Assembly (NCBI RefSeq): GCF_020034665.1
Contig: NZ_JAIQDI010000002.1
Span: forward strand, 1,798,001 to 1,862,000
DNA from: Niabella beijingensis
GTDB lineage: Bacteria; Bacteroidota; Bacteroidia; Chitinophagales; Chitinophagaceae
Length of the DNA: 64,000 bases
Direction of reading: 5' to 3'
The notes beneath the pieces are model-generated. The model was not told where the DNA came from. It did no database searches and saw only the letters and a program-made list of their open reading frames with translations. The position numbers were made by a program, and so were the translations under genes. Position 1 is the first letter of the stretch. Each line of letters starts with the position of its first letter. Positions 7,853 to 17,387 of this stretch are shown one piece after another.

Positions 7853-7988
7853 GATTTAAAAACACAAAGATAGGAAGCTCACCTGCTTAAATATTATTGC
7901 CGGTCATTTTAGTGCATTTAAAAATAGAGCCGGTCATTTGTACTATAAATGAAGTCTTTTGCTTATTTTCGCACTCCCTTAACGGGAT

Positions 7989-8030
7989 GCCCGGGTGGCG
8001 ATCCCGATAGCTATCGGGATGTAGACGCAC
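7989..8030 (+). pseudogene. tRNA-Leu 5' relic carrying a 20-bp palindrome
   Basis: GCCCGGGTGGCG (7989-8000) is identical to the first 12 bases of the intact tRNA-Leu, and GTAGACGCAC (8021-8030) is identical to tRNA bases 8118-8127. The six intervening tRNA bases (AAATTG) are replaced by a perfect palindrome. After 8030 similarity to the tRNA is lost and the anticodon stem cannot form, so this is a broken copy, not a second tRNA. Confidence 0.75.
8001..8020. repeat. Perfect 20-bp palindrome in the tRNA relic
   Basis: ATCCCGATAG followed by its exact reverse complement CTATCGGGAT. From memory, palindromes of the CCCGATAGCTATCGGG type recur in Bacteroidota genomes as short dispersed elements; no second copy was seen in this window. 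Confidence 0.7.
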
Positions 8031-8072
8031 TACACTCAGTAAGGGTAAAAACAGTTCTTTAGTTCAAAAGAT

Positions 8073-8099: not shown

Positions 8100-8188
8100 G
8101 CCCGGGTGGCGAAATTGGTAGACGCACCACCTTGAGGTGGTGGCGCTGGTAACTCGGCGTGCTGGTTCGAATCCAGTCTCGGGCACCA
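8100..8188 (+). tRNA. tRNA-Leu (anticodon GAG)
   Basis: An 89-nt class II tRNA with encoded CCA. The acceptor stem GCCCGGG pairs with CTCGGGC (one G-T pair). The anticodon stem CCACC/GGTGG (8127-8131/8139-8143) encloses loop TTGAGGT with anticodon GAG at 8134-8136. A long variable arm and the T-arm GGTTCGAATCC follow. The discriminator is A and CCA is at 8186-8188. Its 3' end is duplicated twice near 16.8-16.95 kb, which marks it as an integration site. Confidence 0.97.
8169..8188 (+). repeat. Presumed attL (tRNA-Leu 3' end)
   Basis: GAATCCAGTCTCGGGCACCA in the T-arm/acceptor of tRNA-Leu. The first 18 bases recur exactly at 16937-16954, and an 18/20 copy is at 16825-16844. This is the classic position for tyrosine-recombinase crossover. 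Confidence 0.75.
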
Positions 8189-8229
8189 AAAAGCTTTGCA
8201 AGTCATTGATTTGCAAAGCTTTTTTTGTT
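8189..8229 (+). terminator. Rho-independent terminator after tRNA-Leu
   Basis: AAGCTTTGCAA (8191-8201) pairs perfectly with TTGCAAAGCTT (8211-8221), a 9-nt loop lies between, and a T-run follows. A different hairpin with the same design follows the tRNA 3' copy at 16.95 kb. Confidence 0.88.
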
Positions 8230-8235
8230 TTAATA

Positions 8236-8307
8236 CTGTCAAATTCTGTCACTTTTTTACGCTTACTACCGCTATTTCTGACAGAAAAATGACAGGCGGT
8301 ATGACAG
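8236..8307. promoter_or_regulatory. Cluster of CTGTCA/TGACAG hexamers, candidate recombinase arm sites
   Basis: CTGTCA occurs at 8236 and 8246, and its reverse complement TGACAG at 8279, 8290 and 8302. Spacing within each group is 10-12 bp, one helical turn, as expected for protein-binding arm sites next to an att core. The longer form CTGTCAAATT (8236-8245) is the inverse of AATTTGACAG found beside both right-end att copies. Confidence 0.5.
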
Positions 8308-8563
8308 ACTTTTTTTGCTTCTGTTTTTCGGTGATTGTTCACCTCTCTTACTCCCAAATTTTATTTGATGACTACAGGGCGAATCCTCCGCCCAAGATTT
8401 TTTTGTTAACTGCGTACGTGAAATAATTTTCTTTTCTACGCTTTTACTCGCTTCTACACAATTGTCCCATATGGGCATAATGTAAACACCTCAAGCTATA
8501 GAAATCTTCTTTGTTTTGGACCTTGAAGAGGCTTGGTATTGTTCATCAGAAAAAATATACGCA

Positions 8564-9244
8564 ATGAATTTTTTAAAAATAGCCAATAAGAAGGGCGATA
8601 AATTCTATTATTACTACGACTATGGACGGTGTAAAGGCCAACGGCCAAGCACAGGAGTATTCACTTATAAAACTCCCAAAACACAGGTACAGAAAAACCA
8701 TAATAAGGAAGCTCTTTTAATTCTTGAAACAAAGAAAAGTCAACTGACCATCGAGGCTCAAGCAACCGGCGGAGTATATATTCCACATCATAAGTTTAAG
8801 CCTAACTTCCTCGATTACTACTGTGAATATGTCAAACTTAATAAAAAAGACGGCAACCGGCATTTGGAAAATAGCTTGACGCATTTTAAGAACTTCATCA
8901 ATAAAGACTTCATATCGAATGTAGAAGTCACGGAGAATTTTTGTAAACGATTCAGGCAATACCTGTTGGAACGATTTAACGGAGAGACGCCAATGAACTA
9001 CTACGCCCGTTTCAAATGGGTTGTCAAAGCCGCCACAAAGGATAAGTATTTTCATTCAAACCCAACTGAGGACATCAGCGCAGTGACGAACCCATCCACC
9101 GGAATGAAAGAAAACTTGGAAGCAGATGAATACATTCAATTATTGCGAACTCCTTGTAGTAACCAAGAAGTTGGCGCTCGCAGTAGCATTGGTTGGATTG
9201 CACCTTATCCAGTAGTATACTCTTATCAGAAAATTCAAAGCTGA
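8564..9244 (+). pseudogene. Tyrosine recombinase (integrase), truncated after the core-binding domain
   Basis: A 226-aa remnant of a Bacteroidota tyrosine recombinase. It keeps the N-terminal arm-binding region (MNFLKIANKKGDKFYYYYDYG) and the SAM-like core-binding domain (about 90-190, including HLENSLTHFKNFINKDF and MNYYARFKWVVKAA). It stops being integrase-like right after EYIQLLRTPCSNQEV, exactly where the catalytic domain should begin. No R...HxxR...Y catalytic residues follow before the stop at 9244, so it should be inactive. It sits 376 bp from tRNA-Leu and reads away from it, the usual place for an island integrase. An upstream in-frame TTG/ATG at 8516 is possible but adds residues unlike the family. 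Confidence 0.8.
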
Positions 9245-9322
9245 ACGGTGATTAACGGTCTAAGAATCTTTACTCCTGTTCTGATAAATTATAGTTCCGA
9301 TTAATCAGCTACCGAAGGCTCT

Positions 9323-9646
9323 TCATTTTACCCCCCTTTTGAGCGCTTTCAGTTTTCTTCGTTTAAATCGTGCATATAAAAGCACCAATACAAGTGTAAT
9401 AATCAAGGCGAAACCTAGATCTCGTAAAAATTCGTCAAGACGAAAAGAAATAGAAGACCCTATCCGTCCGGGAATCGGACTCACTCCTTGGGTATTTAAA
9501 TAAAAGATTTCAGGGAAGCCAAAGTAAATATCATCAACATCTTTATTAAATGATGCTAATGTAACAAGTCCAAAGACAATCGGGTTAACCAAAGCCACGT
9601 AAGGATAATTTTTTTCCGTTTCATGTTCTTTTGTTGATGCAGACAT
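9323..9646 (-). CDS. Small two-TM membrane protein of the island
   Basis: A 107-aa protein I do not recognise. It has one hydrophobic segment near residues 15-35 (YVALVNPIVFGLVTLASF) and a second near the C-terminus (FALIITLVLVLLYARF), followed by a basic tail RFKRRKLKALKRG, so the C-terminus is probably cytoplasmic. The frame is open up to 9775, but start 9646 follows the stop of the upstream gene by 7 bp (TAA TGAGCAA ATG), an arrangement for translational coupling, and avoids a 120-bp overlap. It is the last gene of the leftward island operon. Confidence 0.6.
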   Translation of the reverse strand: MSASTKEHETEKNYPYVALVNPIVFGLVTLASFNKDVDDIYFGFPEIFYLNTQGVSPIPGRIGSSISFRLDEFLRDLGFALIITLVLVLLYARFKRRKLKALKRGVK

Positions 9647-9653
9647 TTGCTCA

Positions 9654-10427
9654 TTATTGATAAGATATCCGACGTACCCAGGATTGTTTTTTGTAACGCT
9701 CCTGACCAGGACTAGAAACATATTCAATTTTTCGAATCCAACTCCCATTGCTATCATACTCGTAGCTATAATCATGCAACGTCCATTGTGCTTCGTTACC
9801 CTCGCGATATTCCTTTTCCGATATCACACTGCCATTCGAATCGTACGAGTAAGTATTTATCCATCCTGCGGACTTTTTCCTTACAAGTTTATCTTTAATA
9901 TAAACGAACTCATCATTCACAACTTCCTCCACAAATGCGGTGTCTTTAGAACCTGGCCAAATGGCTTTCTCCAATCGTTTCATCGTCGCCCCATCACTTT
10001 CAGACATAGGAACATAGTGATAAAATGACTTCCGGTTAAGCGTCCATCTTTTATCGGGGAGCAATTTAAAAATCTCTTTACTTTCAAGCCAATTGTTATT
10101 TTCAAAGTAACTATACACGACTTTCAACTTTGTGCCATTTAAACCGACCTTATCTGAAACTTCTTCGATGCTACGAGTAGCCTTGTCTACTGTTGCCTGA
10201 ACTTTATAGACGGTTGTGGGCTCTTCTGGGAAATTCGCAGAAAATTCGAAAATGGTGGTCTCTATGGTTCCTACATCCCCTTCCGCTTGAAAAAACTCTT
10301 TCAAAACAGACTGATTGATTACTGCATGGGGTAATCGCCTCTCTCCACTATTTTCGCGCGAAATTGTTTGAGCTTGTGTATGCGGGATGTTTCCCCAAAA
10401 GAAAATCGTAAGAAGTAGAAATTGCAA
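9654..10427 (-). CDS. Secreted protein of unknown function, possible frameshift at its start
   Basis: A 257-aa exported protein; the N-terminal hydrophobic stretch LQFLLLTIFFWGNIPHTQAQ looks like a signal peptide ending at AQA/TQAQ. The C-terminal half has short Y-x-Y-D-x-N-G-x-W-x-x-(K/R) units (SYEYDSNGSWIRKIEY), weakly reminiscent of RHS-like beta repeats. The only in-frame start is TTG 10427. An ATG at 10438 with AAAAA behind it is one base out of frame; with six A residues it would read MKKGLQFLLLT, a textbook signal peptide. The gene follows the LRR gene by 7 bp counted from that ATG, so ATG 10438 is probably the ancestral start. Confidence 0.65.
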   Translation of the reverse strand: MQFLLLTIFFWGNIPHTQAQTISRENSGERRLPHAVINQSVLKEFFQAEGDVGTIETTIFEFSANFPEEPTTVYKVQATVDKATRSIEEVSDKVGLNGTKLKVVYSYFENNNWLESKEIFKLLPDKRWTLNRKSFYHYVPMSESDGATMKRLEKAIWPGSKDTAFVEEVVNDEFVYIKDKLVRKKSAGWINTYSYDSNGSVISEKEYREGNEAQWTLHDYSYEYDSNGSWIRKIEYVSSPGQERYKKQSWVRRISYQ

Positions 10428-10445
10428 TCCTTTTTCATTGTACTA

Positions 10446-11387
10446 TTATATATCTGACCATCCATTTGCTTCAGCAATTTGCCTGAATGCATCGTCCTCA
10501 GATTCTGTTTTAAACACGACCTGGACCTTTCTAAGATTTTTCAAACCACCCAACTGAGTAAAATCTGCGACCGGTATCCGCGTAGGTTCAGTTATCTTCA
10601 GTTCTTCCAGTTGGCTGAACTGCAAAATACTGTCAATGTCTTCGAATTCTTTGGTGGCCACCAGGCTCAGCGATTTTAACACCGCTGGCATGTCCATTTT
10701 CGGGAGACTTTTTACCTTGTTGGTGTGGGCTATCTGTAGGTATTCTAATGCATGTAGAGAAGCAATAAAATCAAAGGTTGATAACCCTTTACCCAGATTA
10801 ATACTTAGGGATTTCAGGTCAGGAAATGCAGATGCCAGCAGCTCCGGGTGCTTTATTGTATTGGAGATCGCCAATTCCTGCAAGCCTGGATTCAATTGAA
10901 CCTTCTTTAAATCGAATGTTGATATTCTAAGGCGTCGAAGACGGGATAAATTACTTGCAAAACCCATTTGTTGCGCATTTGCAAATCCAAATTCCAGGGC
11001 CAGCTCTTCTATACCACTGGTATTCTTTAACGGCTCAAGATCGATTTCTTTTTTGTAGTTGCCATCCAGCCCAAAAGAGGTCAGGTTTCCAAGCCCACAA
11101 AGTTCATCTATATTTTGCAACTGTTGAGAACCGAATGCTAGTACGGTTAGGTGTTTGAAATCGCCCAACGCCTCTACAATTCTTAGGTTACAGTGCCTCC
11201 CTTCAATATTATCCACTGCAGGATCGATAATCAATACAACCCGAATTCGCTGGTTCAACCGCAAGAGGCCTTTTAGGACTTCAGCTTTTTCATGTTCGAT
11301 TACTATTTCTATAGAAATTGAAGAAATGCTTTCTACATTAACTTTCGACAATTCATCTATACTGTATTTGTTAGCTTTTATAACCAT
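10446..11387 (-). CDS. Leucine-rich-repeat protein
   Basis: A 313-aa protein without signal peptide or TM segments. From about residue 75 it contains irregular leucine-rich repeats of about 22 residues (for example FKHLTVLAFGSQQLQNIDEL, LGNLTSFGLDG, LSRLRRLRISTF, FPDLKSLSINLG, LHALEYLQIAHT, FSQLEELKIT). LRR proteins act as binding scaffolds. It is the only clearly non-exported gene product in the island operon, so it may be an intracellular partner such as an adaptor or protective protein; that role is inference only. Confidence 0.75.
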   Translation of the reverse strand: MVIKANKYSIDELSKVNVESISSISIEIVIEHEKAEVLKGLLRLNQRIRVVLIIDPAVDNIEGRHCNLRIVEALGDFKHLTVLAFGSQQLQNIDELCGLGNLTSFGLDGNYKKEIDLEPLKNTSGIEELALEFGFANAQQMGFASNLSRLRRLRISTFDLKKVQLNPGLQELAISNTIKHPELLASAFPDLKSLSINLGKGLSTFDFIASLHALEYLQIAHTNKVKSLPKMDMPAVLKSLSLVATKEFEDIDSILQFSQLEELKITEPTRIPVADFTQLGGLKNLRKVQVVFKTESEDDAFRQIAEANGWSDI

Positions 11388-11484
11388 TTTATACTATAGT
11401 AAAAATATGACAAGTTCGCTCCTGATAAGAATAATTTTAGAGATTCATTGTTTCTTAATTGAAATTGCTTTTACTTTCAAATAG

Positions 11485-12651
11485 TTATTTATCAATCGCA
11501 GTTTCCAGTTGCTTGTCCCTGCCGTTATCAGTATTGATGACTCTTATATCTGGAGGGAATCCAACTTTTTCATAATTTTCTCCAAGTAAAGACGTCAGTG
11601 CTGCAGCAGGGGTATATACGTTAATAAATTTCGCTGCGACAAATGGCCCTCCATTGAATAGTTGCCCATCATAGTTGGCAGGAATCACTCCAGTAGCGCC
11701 CCAGGTTGTATCACCGATGACCCTGGTTTTTTCCCTTGTTCTTAAGGCAATAGTAAAAACTTCCGACATGCTGCGGCTCAACCCATCAACCAAAATTCTG
11801 ATTTCCCCGCCGAAGTTCAACGCGCTCAGCTGGGCATTGACAATTGCATTTATGGCTGGTTGGTAGTTTAGCTGTCCCGGCCCTAATTTATAGGTAAGGT
11901 GTCCGAATGTATAACTTTCAGTCGTTAGATTACCGGCGATAAAGTTTAGATCCCGAACGGCGCCGCCAGGATTACCCCGCAGATCAATTATTGCTTTTGT
12001 TATACCGGGAGATTTTAGCGTTTGGAAAAATCCGTTAATTAACCGACGTGTGCTGTCATTTGCCGGTTCATCATAGGCACTTTTCAAATTAAACTTATCA
12101 AAAAAAAGGTACGCTATGCTATCGTTTATGGTGCCTCCGATTGCGTTCAGTGCTCCAGTTACCCTGTTGAAAGGTTTATCAAGGTATTTCTCAGGGTTCA
12201 GATATAATTGCTGGTCGAGAGTAACGTTATTGCTGTAATCTTTAATGAGCTTTCGCTGGCGGGACGGATTGATATAAAATCCAGCGAGGCGATCATCATT
12301 GAAAGTAATCGTTAGATGTCCGTCAGAGAGCCTTGCAGTCATCTCCTTTATGTAGTCAACGGCAGTTAAAATATCATCGAAATTCTCTGTGTTTAAATTT
12401 TGAAACAGCGGCTTGTATTTTTTATATGTTTCCTCCCAATTTGTCTCTGATTTGTCCATGTTCCAGAAAAGATAGTTGTCCCGCATGCCGAGCCAGAATG
12501 CATCAAAAATTTCTGAAAACGTATAAGGATTATAGTTTTCTGGTTTATTGATTGGTTCCACCGATTTTCGGCATGAAACAAGGAAGCAGAACAATAATGC
12601 AGTCAGCGAGATTATTCCTGGATGAAAGATGTTTGTTCTTTTGATGCTCAT
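11485..12651 (-). CDS. S41-family (C-terminal processing protease-like) lipoprotein
   Basis: A 388-aa lipoprotein (lipobox LVSC, C27). The tail-specific-protease core is visible in the C-terminal half: IIDLRGNPGG (221-230) and LSRSMSEVF (291-299), where S294 is the likely nucleophile in the S-x-S-E motif. An N-terminal helical region typical of Bacteroidota S41 proteins comes first. No PDZ domain is obvious, which is common for this subgroup. It probably cleaves envelope or exported peptides at the cell surface or in the periplasm. Its start is 2 bp from the stop of the upstream beta-barrel gene, so the two are tightly coupled. Confidence 0.88.
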   Translation of the reverse strand: MSIKRTNIFHPGIISLTALLFCFLVSCRKSVEPINKPENYNPYTFSEIFDAFWLGMRDNYLFWNMDKSETNWEETYKKYKPLFQNLNTENFDDILTAVDYIKEMTARLSDGHLTITFNDDRLAGFYINPSRQRKLIKDYSNNVTLDQQLYLNPEKYLDKPFNRVTGALNAIGGTINDSIAYLFFDKFNLKSAYDEPANDSTRRLINGFFQTLKSPGITKAIIDLRGNPGGAVRDLNFIAGNLTTESYTFGHLTYKLGPGQLNYQPAINAIVNAQLSALNFGGEIRILVDGLSRSMSEVFTIALRTREKTRVIGDTTWGATGVIPANYDGQLFNGGPFVAAKFINVYTPAAALTSLLGENYEKVGFPPDIRVINTDNGRDKQLETAIDK

Positions 12652-12653
12652 GT

Positions 12654-13382
12654 TTAATTTTTCGATAAATTAAATGAAGTTCCTATTGAGATTTGGAACG
12701 ATTGATTATAGGATCGAACAGGGAAAAGTTCGGCTTCTTTATATTGGTTGGTTATATCGTGGTAATGCCTGGTTTGGACAAAGACCCTACATGACCTGGA
12801 CGCGGAATACTGTAGACCTCCCCCTACAACATAACCTGCCTCGAAACGATTATCTCTTGATTCCTCAAAACGATAATTTTCGTCAAAATGAATCGCTCCA
12901 AATAGCTCTGAAATTTTCGGATTAGGAATAGTAGGTTCAGCATAGTCGATAATATTTGATGTCACTCCTTTTAGCCGGCCGTTGAGACAATATCCCATAA
13001 ATCCTCCAAGGTTTAAAAACCCCTGAAATTTTCCAGTTCCAAGGGTAAAACGTGCCGTGACCGGCAACTGCAGAAAATTAAAGTAGTTGGAAGTGTAATT
13101 ATCTTGGTAGAAACCTGTTCGATCCAGTCTTGTGTTCTTTTGTATATATTCTATATCTGCCTGCAGTGATAACCATGATCTGAGGTCGTATGTTGCCTGT
13201 AGGTCTAAGAACAAGCCTGTTAATGCTTTTTGACGTGAGTTAAATGGGGCTGCGTTGGAAGTGGTTTTATTTTGAGAAGCACCTAAAGAAACTCCGGCCC
13301 CAAATTGGGGCCAGAGATCATTATAAATGAGAGAAAAGGCTACGATTGCAATAATTCTAAACGCCGGTTTGGGTATTTTCAT
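12654..13382 (-). CDS. Outer-membrane beta-barrel protein (PorT/OmpA-barrel-like)
   Basis: A 242-aa protein with a signal peptide (MKIPKPAFRIIAIVAFSLIYN) and alternating hydrophobic strands with aromatic ends (SLQADIEYIQKNTRL, YFNFLQLPVTARFTLGTGKF, FEAGYVVGGGLQYS, CRVFVQTRHYHDI), ending in FQISIGTSFNLSKN. This is typical of the Bacteroidota 'outer membrane beta-barrel' family (porin-like, 8 strands). It overlaps the upstream 138-aa gene by ATGA and abuts the S41 gene, so the three form a coupled unit. It could present or transport a product of the cluster; function unproven. Confidence 0.8.
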   Translation of the reverse strand: MKIPKPAFRIIAIVAFSLIYNDLWPQFGAGVSLGASQNKTTSNAAPFNSRQKALTGLFLDLQATYDLRSWLSLQADIEYIQKNTRLDRTGFYQDNYTSNYFNFLQLPVTARFTLGTGKFQGFLNLGGFMGYCLNGRLKGVTSNIIDYAEPTIPNPKISELFGAIHFDENYRFEESRDNRFEAGYVVGGGLQYSASRSCRVFVQTRHYHDITNQYKEAELFPVRSYNQSFQISIGTSFNLSKN

Positions 13383-13795
13383 TTTGCTTTAATGTCCTTA
13401 ATGACGGCAGTTTTGTAAAAGTCCCTGGCAGCTGTTGTCCAAGCTCCGGCAGTATCTGTGGCACTGAAAATTACGTCTGACGCCTTAGCATCTCTGGGTG
13501 TTGCCCATTCAATCCACAAGCGTTTTTCAGCAAAGTCTTCCAGGAAGTTAGGAGAATTGAAGTGAAAAAAAGTTGATTTTTCTTTTGCAACATCAAATGC
13601 ATATGCCTTGGGAATAAAAACCTTTATTGGAATTTTCAGACTGTCCAGAAGGACGGAGAAAGGCCTGCCTATAAAATAGGATTTTTTGCTCTCAATTGTT
13701 TTTAGATACGCTGTAGTATCAGTTATCGGAGATGTTTGGGCCTTTGAAACTGATATGATCGCCATGATTACTATTATAAATTTTATCTCTTTCAT
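13379..13795 (-). CDS. Small secreted protein, paralogue A
   Basis: A 138-aa protein with a signal peptide (MKEIKFIIVIMAIISVSKAQ). I do not recognise the family. It is clearly paralogous to the next gene upstream (13904-14320): both share PITDT-(T/S)-AYLKTIESKK, LLDSLKIPIK, FLEDF-(A/S)-EK and a C-terminal FYKTA-x-I-x-DI-x-AK over the same length. Four bases overlap the beta-barrel gene (ATGA). It has no cysteine after the signal, so it is periplasmic or exported rather than lipidated. Confidence 0.75.
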   Translation of the reverse strand: MKEIKFIIVIMAIISVSKAQTSPITDTTAYLKTIESKKSYFIGRPFSVLLDSLKIPIKVFIPKAYAFDVAKEKSTFFHFNSPNFLEDFAEKRLWIEWATPRDAKASDVIFSATDTAGAWTTAARDFYKTAVIKDIKAK

Positions 13796-13903
13796 TATTT
13801 GTGTTCTAAAGAAGGCGAATTTAACTCTGGTCCCAAACAGAGACCAGAGTTTGATATAATAGTAGCTGCACGCAATTGCGAAAATTGATCATATTGAAAT
13901 TCA

Positions 13904-14320
13904 TTATTTTGCTCTAATATCACTTATTATAGCTGTTTTATAAAAGTTCTGGGCAGCTATTGTCCATTCACCTGCTATTGCAGTCGCATTGAATATTAAT
14001 TCTGATGCATTAGCATCTAATGGCGTTGTCCACTCAATACGAAGATATTTTTCTGAAAAATCTTCCAGGTACTTTGGAACAGCAAAATAGAAGTATGTAG
14101 CTATCTCTTTGGATACGTCTGTTGGCTTAGGTTTCGAGCCAAATGTCTTAATTGGGATTTTCAAACTGTCAAGTAATACAGAAAGGGGCTTGCCTTTGAA
14201 GTATGCTTTTTTGCTTTCAATGGTTTTCAGATATGCTGAAGTATCAGTTATCGGGCCTGTTTGGGCATTTGATACATTTAAAATTGTAAGAGTCAAAATC
14301 GTTGTAAGTATCTTTTTCAT
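13904..14320 (-). CDS. Small secreted protein, paralogue B
   Basis: A 138-aa protein with a signal peptide (MKKILTTILTLTILNVSNAQ), the tandem paralogue of the protein encoded at 13379-13795, of identical length and colinear over its whole mature part. Divergence is concentrated in the middle (about residues 60-80), while the N-terminal TIESKK region and the C-terminal tail are kept. Duplication with retained length suggests both are functional. The gene lies 24 bp downstream of the JAB-like lipoprotein gene and is probably cotranscribed with it. Confidence 0.75.
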   Translation of the reverse strand: MKKILTTILTLTILNVSNAQTGPITDTSAYLKTIESKKAYFKGKPLSVLLDSLKIPIKTFGSKPKPTDVSKEIATYFYFAVPKYLEDFSEKYLRIEWTTPLDANASELIFNATAIAGEWTIAAQNFYKTAIISDIRAK

Positions 14321-14344
14321 ATTTATAATTTATTTATAAAAAAA

Positions 14345-15898
14345 CTAACAGCCATTTTCAAATGTTGTTTTTACGTTTCCTTTACTATCCGTGGTTTTTA
14401 CTTTCTTTTTCACAATTGGCTTAAAGGACTTTGTGTTTGGATCATACTTAGTTATTGCAACACCAGTATGAAATTCACTTAATACATATGCAAGTGCATC
14501 CGCGTGAGCTAAATTCTTTTGGTCTTTGTTTTTTTTATAATCGTTTGCCAAGAAATATTGATATGCTTCATCATAGGCTTTACCAATTAGACTGGAAGTA
14601 TTAAAGGCACTGCCATTGAGGTTCGCCACTTGCGATGGCTTGAAGGTAAATGCTGACCCCATGTTAGTTACGGTAATGCCGTACATAGTACCATCCGATG
14701 CAAGAACGAAATTCCCCTGGTATCTTCCTCCGGTGAACTTACCTGAATCGTCGTAAACATTCTGAATGAGCTGATATATGTCAGCCGGTGAAGGACCTGC
14801 CAAACCCTTCGCTGGATGAGTATGTACTGTTGTTACGACACCTTCGAGGTAGGATGTTGTAGTGTTGATTACAATGGATGAATCCGTTCCTGTTTGAATG
14901 GCTCCGGCATAATAGTATTCATGCTTGATTTTTGTATTGTCAAATGAATCCACGGACACCCGTTCGTATAAAGCATATCCCTTTTCCAGCGTTAAATTTT
15001 TTATATCCCCAAGATTGGCTTTTGTTTGTTGCATCGCACTTTCATTAAATATTGCAGTTAATGCTGCAGCTGCTGAGCTTCCGGCGCTGCATGGATCAGT
15101 TGTAGGATTACCTGGGTCTGTCGGATTCGTTGGGTTTGTAGGAGTGCCACCGCCGTTTCCAGGAGGATTAGGAGGATCTGGCGGCATTGGTGGATCTTCG
15201 CCACCTCCAACTGGAGGAGTGACAATAACAACAGGGGGTAGTTCTACAGTATCGGCGTCCACACCTATTCTGCGGTACTTTGCTAAAACATTTGTAGGAG
15301 AAGAATTTGTTGAGCCGCCTTTGATTGCTAATGCTCCTGTTTGAGCACCGTCCTTAAAAATTGCGCCCTTGATGAACAAATTGCTTGTGGTGTAGAACAT
15401 CACTTTTCCTGTGAATGTTGCCGGATACGAATAGGACCGAATACCTTCGGTACTTCTGTGCATTCGGAGCAGTTGCCGGAGGTATACACTATCAAAAATA
15501 ACCTCCTGTATATATTCTTTAATATTCCCATTTTGATCTTTTAGAATAATTAAGTCTCTGAAAGAATTTTTCCCACCCCAACCGCTGGTGTTATCCAGTT
15601 CAATGCGTAACCCCTGCGTGGCGTTGTCGGTTCGGGTATTTTTCCATTCCGGATCGCCAGCAAATGCGCCAATTGAATAAGTCGTCATTCTGCGCTGGCT
15701 ATTTGCGGTTAGGTTGCTCATGATCTTTCGATCTTCCGCATGTTTTGCATTGAACCAGGTCCTTGCTTCTTCAACAGAAAGCGTTTGATTGTTGGGTTCA
15801 GGGCCGCCTCGCTGAGCGGTCTCCTTTTTGGAGCAAGAACCTATAATTGCCAGAGCAATAAGGGGCAAATAAACAGAACGTTTTAATTTGGTGTTCAT
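14345..15898 (-). CDS. Lipoprotein with proline-rich linker and JAB/MPN-like domain
   Basis: A 517-aa lipoprotein (lipobox IGSC, C22). Residues 40-200 form an unrecognised beta-rich domain, 220-270 are a Pro/Gly/Asn/Thr-rich linker, and 280-517 contain a JAB/MPN-like region. Its core HTHPAKGLAGPSPAD gives H359, H361, S370 and D373, close to the JAMM zinc motif H-x-H-x(7)-S-x(2)-D but with one extra residue in the loop. An acidic residue that could complete the site is E352 in the preceding strand. JAMM proteins are zinc peptidases or isopeptidases, and exported JAB-like domains occur in polymorphic-toxin-type proteins; catalysis is not proven here. It is the first gene of the leftward island run. 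Confidence 0.7.
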   Translation of the reverse strand: MNTKLKRSVYLPLIALAIIGSCSKKETAQRGGPEPNNQTLSVEEARTWFNAKHAEDRKIMSNLTANSQRRMTTYSIGAFAGDPEWKNTRTDNATQGLRIELDNTSGWGGKNSFRDLIILKDQNGNIKEYIQEVIFDSVYLRQLLRMHRSTEGIRSYSYPATFTGKVMFYTTSNLFIKGAIFKDGAQTGALAIKGGSTNSSPTNVLAKYRRIGVDADTVELPPVVIVTPPVGGGEDPPMPPDPPNPPGNGGGTPTNPTNPTDPGNPTTDPCSAGSSAAAALTAIFNESAMQQTKANLGDIKNLTLEKGYALYERVSVDSFDNTKIKHEYYYAGAIQTGTDSSIVINTTTSYLEGVVTTVHTHPAKGLAGPSPADIYQLIQNVYDDSGKFTGGRYQGNFVLASDGTMYGITVTNMGSAFTFKPSQVANLNGSAFNTSSLIGKAYDEAYQYFLANDYKKNKDQKNLAHADALAYVLSEFHTGVAITKYDPNTKSFKPIVKKKVKTTDSKGNVKTTFENGC

Positions 15899-16778
15899 AT
15901 TATGATTGGGTTTAAAAATGACGGGGTAACTGGTTCAAAAGTTGGTTGGCGTAAGGTTGGTCAATAGCAACTTTGTGTTTTGAGGTATGGGTTTTTTATA
16001 GTTGAGTTCTTATTTTTTATTAGTTCCGAAGATATCTGTAATTAATATGCAAACATTCATTATATGTTAATATAAAGTTAAATAGCTAATATCTTGAATC
16101 TTGAGACAGGAATCATCGCAGCGCGAAGCACAATAAAGCCTTCCGCAACTGCAGTCATTCTAGGTAGGAATTTTGCAAAAGCAGTACAAATTTGTACCTT
16201 TACTTTGATAAAGGGAGAAATCGTAAGAAAGTGAACAATAGTGAACAGCTTTCAAAACGCGACACTTTTTTGACACACAAAGCCCATAATCAATTGATTA
16301 TCATAAGGAATTCAAGTCCCGCCTGGTGACTTTTACCTTGCCCCACAATTTTTCGCGAGATTTAATGGTATACGAGCAGGATGATGAACGACATCTGAGA
16401 CTGCAACCTATGACGTTGCTCGGTTCGAAAAAAACAACACGGCGCTGGGTGCTTCAAAGTGAGCGACTGGATGAGCTACAAACAACGACGATAATCTCAA
16501 CTGAAGAAAAGAGAACCCACTCTTGATACACGATTTAGTAAACCATTAAATCAAACAGTAGAACTGAATCACTCGCGACGGTCCAACCCACTGCTAGTTG
16601 AAAATCGCTCTCTCACCTTCTATTTGCCAGTATAATAAATGGAGACCGAATGGGTCAAGAAGAACACCGATCTGCAGTTCCCTTCGATTGTACAATTAAA
16701 TCAGAAATAATGAACTTTTTATTTGGTGGTTTTGAGTAACTTTGTGGTGTTATCGGTGGGTGCGTTCAACCTGACCGA
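15899..16778. other. Non-coding stretch with no supportable gene
   Basis: About 880 bp upstream of the leftward island operon, AT-rich at first. It should carry the operon promoter. A perfect 16-bp palindrome lies at 16286-16301. A short open frame at 16326-16526 has no recognisable content. The rest looks like decayed sequence. Confidence 0.5.
16286..16325. repeat. 16-bp palindrome followed by a tRNA-T-arm-like string
   Basis: ATAATCAATTGATTAT (16286-16301) is perfectly self-complementary. Soon after comes TTCAAGTCCCGCC (16311-16323), which resembles a tRNA T-arm (GGTTCAAGTCC) but is not attached to a tRNA. It may be another old att remnant; weak evidence. Confidence 0.3.
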
Positions 16779-16788
16779 AATTTGACAG
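16779..16788 (+). promoter_or_regulatory. AATTTGACAG motif beside att copy 2
   Basis: The 10-mer ends 36 bp before the att-like copy at 16825. The same 10-mer stands 37 bp before the third att copy, and its exact inverse is at 8236-8245 inside the left end. The placement suits a recombinase-binding site at an island end. Confidence 0.5.
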
Positions 16789-16824
16789 AAATCACTTGCA
16801 AATAGTTGTTACCCAGGCAAGAAG

Positions 16825-16844
16825 GAATCCAGTCCTGGGCACCA
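16825..16844 (+). repeat. Presumed attR copy (18/20 match to tRNA-Leu 3' end)
   Basis: GAATCCAGTCCTGGGCACCA differs from the tRNA 3' end only by TC/CT inside the acceptor strand and keeps the CCA. No tRNA 5' part precedes it, so it is a 3'-end duplicate as left by site-specific integration. Confidence 0.65.
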
Positions 16845-16889
16845 ACGGTTAAAATGGTCATTTTATGATAGTCTACATATGACGACATA

Positions 16890-16899
16890 AATTTGACAG
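16890..16899 (+). promoter_or_regulatory. AATTTGACAG motif beside att copy 3
   Basis: Second right-side copy of the 10-mer, ending 37 bp before the exact att copy at 16937. Together with the copy at 16779 it shows that the motif and the att core travel as a unit. Confidence 0.5.
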
Positions 16900-16936
16900 T
16901 TTTTTTAGCCAACTTATTGGAAGCGAAGAGATTGGG

Positions 16937-16954
16937 AATCCAGTCTCGGGCACA
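16937..16954 (+). repeat. Presumed attR copy (18/18 match to tRNA-Leu 3' end)
   Basis: GAATCCAGTCTCGGGCAC is identical to tRNA-Leu bases 8169-8186; the next base breaks the match so CCA is lost. It is followed at once by a terminator hairpin, as a genuine tRNA 3' end would be. Confidence 0.75.
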
Positions 16955-16956
16955 AA

Positions 16957-16997
16957 TAAAAAAGCTGTAAGTTAATCGCTTACAGCTTTTTTGTTTT
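16957..16997 (+). terminator. Terminator hairpin behind the displaced tRNA 3' copy
   Basis: AAAAGCTGTAAG (16961-16972) pairs perfectly with CTTACAGCTTTT (16980-16991), followed by TTTGTTTTT. It has the same layout as the hairpin behind the intact tRNA but a different sequence. It may be the original chromosomal terminator of tRNA-Leu, displaced by island insertion. Confidence 0.8.
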
Positions 16998-17040
16998 TAT
17001 CAGATAATTTCCAGGCAGACTATTCCGGGTACGCAAAACT

Positions 17041-17235
17041 CAGTAAGAAAAAGACAATAGTCATTTGGAAAATAGCCCAAAAGATTTTAAGAAATTCATC
17101 GACAAAGATTTTATTTCTACGTGGAAATGAATACGAATTTTTATAAGCGATTCAGCCAATGTCGACCAGACCGATTTAACAGCTAAACCTCAATGAACAA
17201 CTACGCTTGTTTCAAACGGGCATTACGCTCCCACT
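17041..17235 (+). pseudogene. Second, decayed tyrosine recombinase fragment
   Basis: Read in shifting frames this encodes DNSHLENSPKDFKKFIDKDFIS, then NFYKRFSQ, then RFNS, then MNNYACFKRA. These match, in order, the integrase remnant near 8.8-9.0 kb (HLENSLTHFKNFINKDFIS, NFCKRFRQ, RFNG, MNYYARFKW). In-frame TGA/TAA codons and frame changes show it is dead. Only the core-binding domain survives. It lies 87 bp beyond the third att copy and reads rightward, like the first remnant beside the tRNA, so it likely comes from another island once inserted in tandem. From 17236 to 17387 nothing recognisable is seen. Confidence 0.7.
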
Positions 17236-17387
17236 TCAATTCCCAGAATGATGATAGAAAAAAATCCGTTTGTATGTGCGTAACATGGCATTACCTACCA
17301 GATTAATGGGAGGATCAAAATACCAGTTTTCAGGGAGACAATACCTGATTTTAAATAGGTAATTTCGAATTTCAAAATTTATGAAAA

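Follow-up and report, generated by a model that had tools for sequence, protein, structure and literature searches.

A probable tandem stack of decayed integrative genomic islands at the 3' end of a tRNA-Leu(GAG) gene in Niabella beijingensis

Introduction

Given that the 3' end of a tRNA-Leu gene recurs in like orientation on a 64-kb stretch of DNA (the window) from the 6.59-Mb genome of Niabella beijingensis (G000), the question arises of how the additional copies came to lie there. According to an excerpt of the Islander work, a regenerated tRNA gene and a like-oriented displaced fragment of it mark the ends of an island (PMC4383910), and an excerpt on the accretion of ICE, IME and CIME describes how entry, decay and re-entry at one site lead to tandems of decayed elements (PMC5704250). 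A sequence-only reading of the window had noted three att-like tRNA-Leu ends tied to an inverted motif, and had proposed recombinase-type island ends with nested or successive insertions. Our analysis indicates that integrative genomic islands, now decayed, were very probably stacked in tandem here at the 3' end of tRNA-Leu(GAG), a gene that mobile elements appear to have entered at least twice and probably three times.

Copies of the tRNA-Leu 3' end

The target gene and the core copies are as follows.

8100..8188, + strand: tRNA-Leu(GAG), the regenerated target gene (ARAGORN; same-genus copies 87-100% identical)
8169..8188, + strand: core copy 1, the tRNA 3' end (0/20 mismatches)
16825..16844, + strand: core copy 2, putative junction of islands A and B (2/20 mismatches)
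16936..16955, + strand: core copy 3, putative junction of islands B and C (1/20 mismatches)

ARAGORN reports the gene as tRNA-???, and its anticodon loop, TTGAGGT, is read here as that of tRNA-Leu(GAG). The three att-like ends are confirmed and are the sole copies in the 64 kb, as no further copy with up to five mismatches of 20 was found on either strand. Across the whole genome an 18-base core with up to two mismatches occurs at four places, namely these three copies and a second tRNA-Leu. An intact tRNA gene is thus accompanied by displaced 3' fragments in like orientation, as in tRNA-gene islands.

The motif AATTTGACAG, which includes one TGACAG, is indeed exact at 16779-16788 and 16890-16899, with its exact inverse at 8236-8245; elsewhere in the window it has one site, with one mismatch. 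The distance from motif to core is 36 bp at the first right end, as had been stated, and also 36 bp at the second in register with GAATCC, where 37 had been given because the third core copy was taken one base later. The link between the motif and the att cores stands. The idea of a single inverted pair does not, since the motif is one of several arm-type sites. TGACAG or its complement CTGTCA occurs 30 times in the 64 kb, with seven occurrences within these ends: a 72-bp span at the left holds five (8236, 8246, 8279, 8290 and 8302), and the two right ends hold one apiece (16783 and 16894). We read these clustered sites as putative arm-type sites of an integrase.

Islands A, B and C

Island A, the best preserved of the three, comprises the following features.

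8190..8226, + strand: putative tRNA terminator, formed by a hairpin and the T run after it (sequence; covariation in 22 left ends), with an exact match to WATCAANNNNTTR, an IHF-consensus site, at 8199-8211 (- strand)
8236..8251, - strand: two inverted putative arm-type sites, CTGTCA (8236, 8246; 6-mer scan)
8279..8307, + strand: three direct putative arm-type sites, TGACAG (8279, 8290, 8302; 6-mer scan), kept in the left-end alignment
8516..9244, + strand: truncated tyrosine recombinase (PF13102 only; tblastn to the intact integrase of genome G012)
9323..15898, - strand: cargo genes (ORFs, Pfam)
16772..16788, + strand: putative right-end arm pair 1, TGACCG (16772) and TGACAG (16783), from the sequence
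16799..16811, - strand: IHF-like site with one mismatch in right end 1, placed as in 15/23 right ends (consensus scan)

The recombinase of island A shares 56% identity with the intact 371-residue integrase of G012 (tblastn, E 3e-77). This homology spans 8564-9172, or approximately residues 5-207, and the catalytic domain is absent; Pfam likewise finds PF13102 and no catalytic domain. The cargo includes a leucine-rich repeat (LRR) protein, an S41 peptidase, a beta-barrel protein, two related 138-residue proteins (66% identity) and a 517-residue lipoprotein-like protein, with Pfam domains (LRR, S41 peptidase, beta-barrel) in 3/8 cargo ORFs. No relaxase, conjugation or transfer domain was found by Pfam in these eight ORFs. 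A reading of the block as a defence island was dropped, as PADLOC gave no match for nine proteins at E up to 0.01. The GC content of 8189-16824 is 39.7%, against 48.1% for the window, and this block has the lowest GC among the window's 8.6-kb stretches.

The sequence to the right of island A holds the remaining features.

16845..16935, + strand: probable remnant of island B, with the inverted repeat TAAAATG-GT-CATTTTA (16850-16865) and putative arm pair 2 (TGACGA 16880, TGACAG 16894), from the sequence
16958..16993, + strand: left-end hairpin and T run of island C (16936-16998 matches a tRNA-Leu and its terminator in genome G011 at 86%)
17050..17216, + strand: decayed remains of the island C integrase, covering residues 100-155 in two frames with one stop (tblastn)

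Islands A and C are backed by integrase sequence. Island B, reduced to 92 bp, is probably a separate insertion, as suggested by its two cores and by the arm pair and inverted repeat between them. The integrase fragment of island C (tblastn E 1.6e-4 with composition correction off) begins 95 bp past core 3, whereas in intact elements several hundred bases separate residues 100-155 from the core, which implies an internal deletion. Core 3 would be a junction that doubles as the left end of an older island C. With a hairpin and another integrase remnant behind this core, the stack comprised at least two islands and probably three. The core scan recognised no right end of island C in the window, and since matches to the genes at 17.4-23.6 kb are scattered over several places in relatives, its right limit was not located.

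Integrases and island ends in relatives

Matches to the window integrase (E up to 1e-8) were found in 13/59 genomes, its own included, several of them adjoining tRNA-Leu genes. In G012 an intact integrase lies 3' of tRNA-Leu(CAG), with a second core 70.8 kb away in like orientation, and in G006 three cores on one strand (1038888, 1057460 and 1109726) span 71 kb, the middle one being followed by integrase fragments. These homologous islands, with intact integrases and paired ends, support both the proposal of recombinase-type ends and that of successive insertions.

An integrase scan of named genomes gave 66 loci, of which 49 were inspected (33 at 40% identity or more and 16 below). ARAGORN called an upstream tRNA-Leu at 26 of the 33 loci in the upper class and at one of the 16 in the lower; these genes were of the CAG, GAG, CAA or TAA type, at a distance of 144-621 bp. 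Among the seven exceptions, five (L094, L105, L108, L112, L141) show sequence resembling a tRNA 3' end by eye, and two have little upstream DNA. Intact integrases of relatives contain PF13102 and PF00589. Islands with an intact integrase include one of 14.8 kb in Niastella soli and one of 41 kb in Niastella sp. OAS944. The His of the HxxR motif is replaced by Ser in 12 of 15 aligned integrases. A search with the integrase profile gave partial matches to structures of lambda integrase. No relaxase or conjugation gene was found in the ten ORFs examined, out of 17, of the 14.8-kb island in N. soli.

The left ends were compared in an alignment of 22 sequences. In their consensus fold, nine of the 12 hairpin pairs have a sequence changed on both sides, with 2-8 such sequences for each of the lower six pairs and 0-3 for the upper six. 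A covariance model was trained on left ends beside tRNA ends or displaced copies, with the core left out, and gave 40 matches in 22/99 genomes, that of the window included. Repeats common outside tRNA contexts had been named as counting against the island interpretation. The result speaks against such a refutation, as all 30 matches inspected come after a tRNA 3' end or after what was judged by eye to be a copy of one, displaced or cut off: 21 lie after tRNA-Leu, five after such a copy and four, which are weak, after tRNA-Arg or tRNA-Pro. The training set contained nine of the 30; the 21 outside it divide into 13, four and four, respectively. The hairpin alone was rejected as unique to these islands, as its motif occurs in 50 viral contigs, where a tRNA is called within 400 bp in one and a related integrase in three.

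Empty and filled sites

The sequence-only reading had looked to sister genomes for an unoccupied tRNA-Leu site. Nine other genomes were searched, and six Niastella regions were inspected. Four of the six (G086, G088, G092, G093) carry tRNA-Leu(CAG) with the core running directly into a terminator, that is, an empty site. In N. soli a similar terminator follows the right core of the 14.8-kb island (87% over 62 bases to G093 by BLAST), and in 4/4 comparisons by global alignment the right core is the better match than the left, if modestly so (G093: 39/54 against 35/60). The flanks in N. soli imply that the tRNA segment is inverted there. These empty and filled sites support insertion at this core.

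An empty site was found for a related island in Niastella; for the window's own tRNA-Leu(GAG) none was found in a close sister, because the right flank is rearranged. Matches of relatives downstream of tRNA-Leu(GAG) resume near 23.6 kb. In G003 the tRNA-Leu(GAG) is followed by a 3.4-kb insert, apparently of another kind, and the sequence after the right core of this insert is that found after the uninterrupted tRNA in G001, G004 and G013. The terminator common to these three genomes was not found in the window. Two other guides to an empty site failed: for the right flank in G010, the best match in G005 lies on another contig, and the right flank of the 70.8-kb island in G012, matched in 14 of 16 other Niabella genomes, has its matches either on a different contig or no less than 86 kb away from tRNA-Leu(CAG).

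IHF-type sites and arm-site dialects

The version of the IHF consensus used here, WATCAANNNNTTR, is that of an excerpt of PMC8942017; an excerpt of PMC6907758 lists the same pattern under H-NS. It is exact in 23/47 left ends and present with up to one mismatch in 35/47, 31 of the latter on the minus strand at offsets 11-14. In right ends it is exact in 6/23 and within one mismatch in 20/23, of which 15 share one offset and strand. Shuffled sequences gave means of 0.32 (left, exact), 5.2 (left, up to one mismatch), 0.23 (right, exact) and 3.27 (right, up to one mismatch), and among 1000 permuted patterns three reached the left count, none the right and none both. Thinning at 75% identity left 14 exact and 23 one-mismatch matches in 32 left ends, and five and 15 in 18 right ends. 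As the end sequences are homologous, these counts are not independent, and the weight lies on the occurrence at two separate ends. Within the window the mismatches number zero at the left end, one at right end 1 and two at right end 2, the last of which has no IHF-like site within one mismatch. In Bacteroidota, an HU-family protein would be used at such sites. A positioned IHF-consensus site at both left and right ends goes beyond the textbook picture.

Arm sites vary among islands. The arm regions of 18 pairs of neighbouring, like-oriented cores give a summed best match of 170. Permutations average 145, and 102 of 20000 reach 170. In one case (L110/L171) GGCAC-type arms are common over 20 bases. 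Five of the 18 pairs lack an arm-like match (G006 GAG, G015 CAG, L091, Chitinophaga silvatica and Puia) and may reflect the decay of an end or the fusion of islands. Because most ends share TGACAC, only two of the 18 left ends have their true right end ranked first. A tendency of arm-site dialects to match between the two ends of an island, which likewise would go beyond the textbook picture, is suggestive only.

From these observations we tentatively put forward, as a proposal that we rate below an even chance, that a class of tRNA-Leu islands widespread in Chitinophagaceae may have a composite boundary, in which the conserved upper stem and loop of the tRNA terminator would serve as a bend site for an HU/IHF-family protein. 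Arm dialects (TGACAG, TGACAC, TGACAA, TGACTG and GGCAC) would then be a compatibility code by which the two ends of one island are matched.

Alternative explanations

Short repeats are common in genomes, and chance repeats near a tRNA gene would be one account of the three cores. In a sample of 2000 random 20-mers from the window, 21 recur at least once with up to two mismatches, and nine recur at least twice, as the core does; integrase homology, recurrence in relatives and the drop in GC also speak against chance, and we give this account practically no credence. It is also improbable that a single island was present whose right end was duplicated locally, so that the extra core and 16845-17300 are the decayed product. 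That account would fit the equal 36-bp spacing of AATTTGACAG at both right ends and the missing right end of a third island in the window. A duplicated right end would not, however, supply the left-end-type hairpin and integrase fragment after core 3; the two right ends also differ outside core and motif, and G006 shows a like order at full size.

A stronger competitor accepts the islands and bears on their ends: the conserved hairpin may be a terminator only, with the IHF-like match a by-product of shared descent. We consider this a substantial possibility, if short of an even chance. The homology of the left ends lends it weight, as do the mixed places of the hairpin in viral contigs, the tRNA-Leu sites with a hairpin and no arm sites (L035, L037, L052) and a left end with arms and a different hairpin (L102). 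Against it, the separate right ends match the consensus as well, largely at one offset and strand and at a frequency that no permuted pattern reached, and the lower stem varies with compensation while the sequence of the upper stem and loop is kept.

Proposed course of integration

The stack of islands that we favour is based on the three cores, the arm-type repeats adjoining them, the two integrase remnants, a left end homologous to those beside intact integrases, the paired ends of relatives and the contrast of empty and filled sites in Niastella. Each element would have borne a copy of the tRNA 3' end, at which its tyrosine recombinase would have integrated it; the incoming copy would thereby regenerate the tRNA and shift the old 3' end, together with earlier islands, to the right. 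The N-terminal part of the recombinase would bind TGACA[G/C/A] repeats, and on each side an HU/IHF-family host protein would bend the stretch that separates core from arms. Within the resulting lambda-like complex, strands would be exchanged in that portion of the core which belongs to the tRNA.

The copy in the window looks like an immobile relic, with the catalytic domain absent from island A, 92 bp left of island B and a fragmentary integrase in island C. Given the loss of that domain, self-directed excision of island A is unlikely, and an excised circle made by the element's own truncated enzyme is not expected. Action in trans by a related integrase is possible.

Comparison with known systems

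NBU1/IntCTnDOT-type elements appear to be the closest known, and integration at the 3' end of tRNA-Leu is shared with them; the host here belongs to a different bacterial family from that of the Bacteroides element NBU1. The ORFs scanned here hold no relaxase, the aligned integrases mostly have Ser for the His of HxxR, and the domains are PF13102 with PF00589 in intact relatives and PF13102 only in the window. The IntCTnDOT subgroup, from Bacteroidetes, has an arm-binding domain according to an excerpt of PMC8138268; Pfam found none in two intact integrases of relatives. The end marks are alike to those of Islander-type islands, for which Islander requires an integrase gene per island; the integrases here are truncated or fragmentary, and intact in relatives. 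The stack also resembles the tandem accretion of ICE, IME and CIME, although its ancestors cannot be called ICE or IME, as transfer genes were not seen.

In the lambda intasome, the core with IHF sites is accompanied by arm-type sites on both sides. By sequence, IHF-consensus sites and arm-type repeats, at which a bend protein and the integrase would bind, likewise flank the core on both sides here; a difference is that the target is a tRNA 3' end. An island at tRNA-Arg is described for Riemerella in an excerpt of PMC6764341. In the open-licence literature we found no earlier description of Chitinophagaceae integrases with tRNA-Leu islands, of tandem tRNA-Leu islands with attachment sites in Bacteroidetes, or related to the string AAGTCATTGATTT (one match was judged unrelated by its title). 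The same literature yielded no earlier description of the putative composite terminator and bend site with arm dialects.

Significance

The window holds a decayed member of an already known kind of island. Its three repeats lead to an attachment-site grammar with which the ends of islands can be located in related genomes even after degradation. Natural arm-site variants at a common target are useful for testing how stacked islands avoid cross-recombination of their ends. If the composite boundary were true, integration would supply a fresh tRNA terminator and half of a recombination complex in one stroke; where tandem stacks are crowded, dialects would sort the ends island by island, and a pair of ends that do not match would point to a fusion of islands. 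As the end design recurs in related bacteria, this ordinary kind of relic shows in legible form how the islands of one integrase family are marked at their ends.

Integrase motif and cargo genes

The catalytic HxxR motif was compared in an integrase alignment (A2) in which the loci L089-L101 and L148 were set against L107, L110 and L111. Serine replaces the histidine (TWSCAR) in 12 of the 15 integrases, and the histidine is kept in the other three, which are the more distant ones.

Two cargo features of island A, the island adjoining the tRNA-Leu, are listed here in window coordinates.

9323-10427, minus strand: two ORFs of 150 and 257 aa that overlap but are read in different frames
14345-15898: ORF for a 517-aa lipoprotein-like protein

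The ORF pair looks like a single gene split by a frameshift. The 517-aa protein has no match in Pfam; it contains HTHP...SPAD, which we take to be reminiscent of the JAMM metalloprotease motif.

Sequences flanking tRNA-Leu

Immediately 5' of tRNA-Leu, GATGCCCGGGTGGCGATCCCGATAGCTATCGGGATGTAGACGCA (window 7980-8040) resembles the 5' part of tRNA-Leu with an inverted repeat interrupting it, and similar pieces also precede the tRNA in two of the compared genomes (G004 and G013).

The hairpin TGTAARTCATTGAYTTACA is present in 50 IMG/VR viral contigs (L235-L284), partly behind tRNA-like 3' ends and partly in phage intergenic regions. It may be a terminator or host-factor site in wide reuse.

A different tRNA-Leu downstream type, consisting of a terminator followed by TTTTTTTATGC, was seen repeatedly (loci L034, L044 and, right of its core, L075), namely in the compared genomes G015 and G003 and on the right side of the G012 island. 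This arrangement may mark the left end of islands from a second family.
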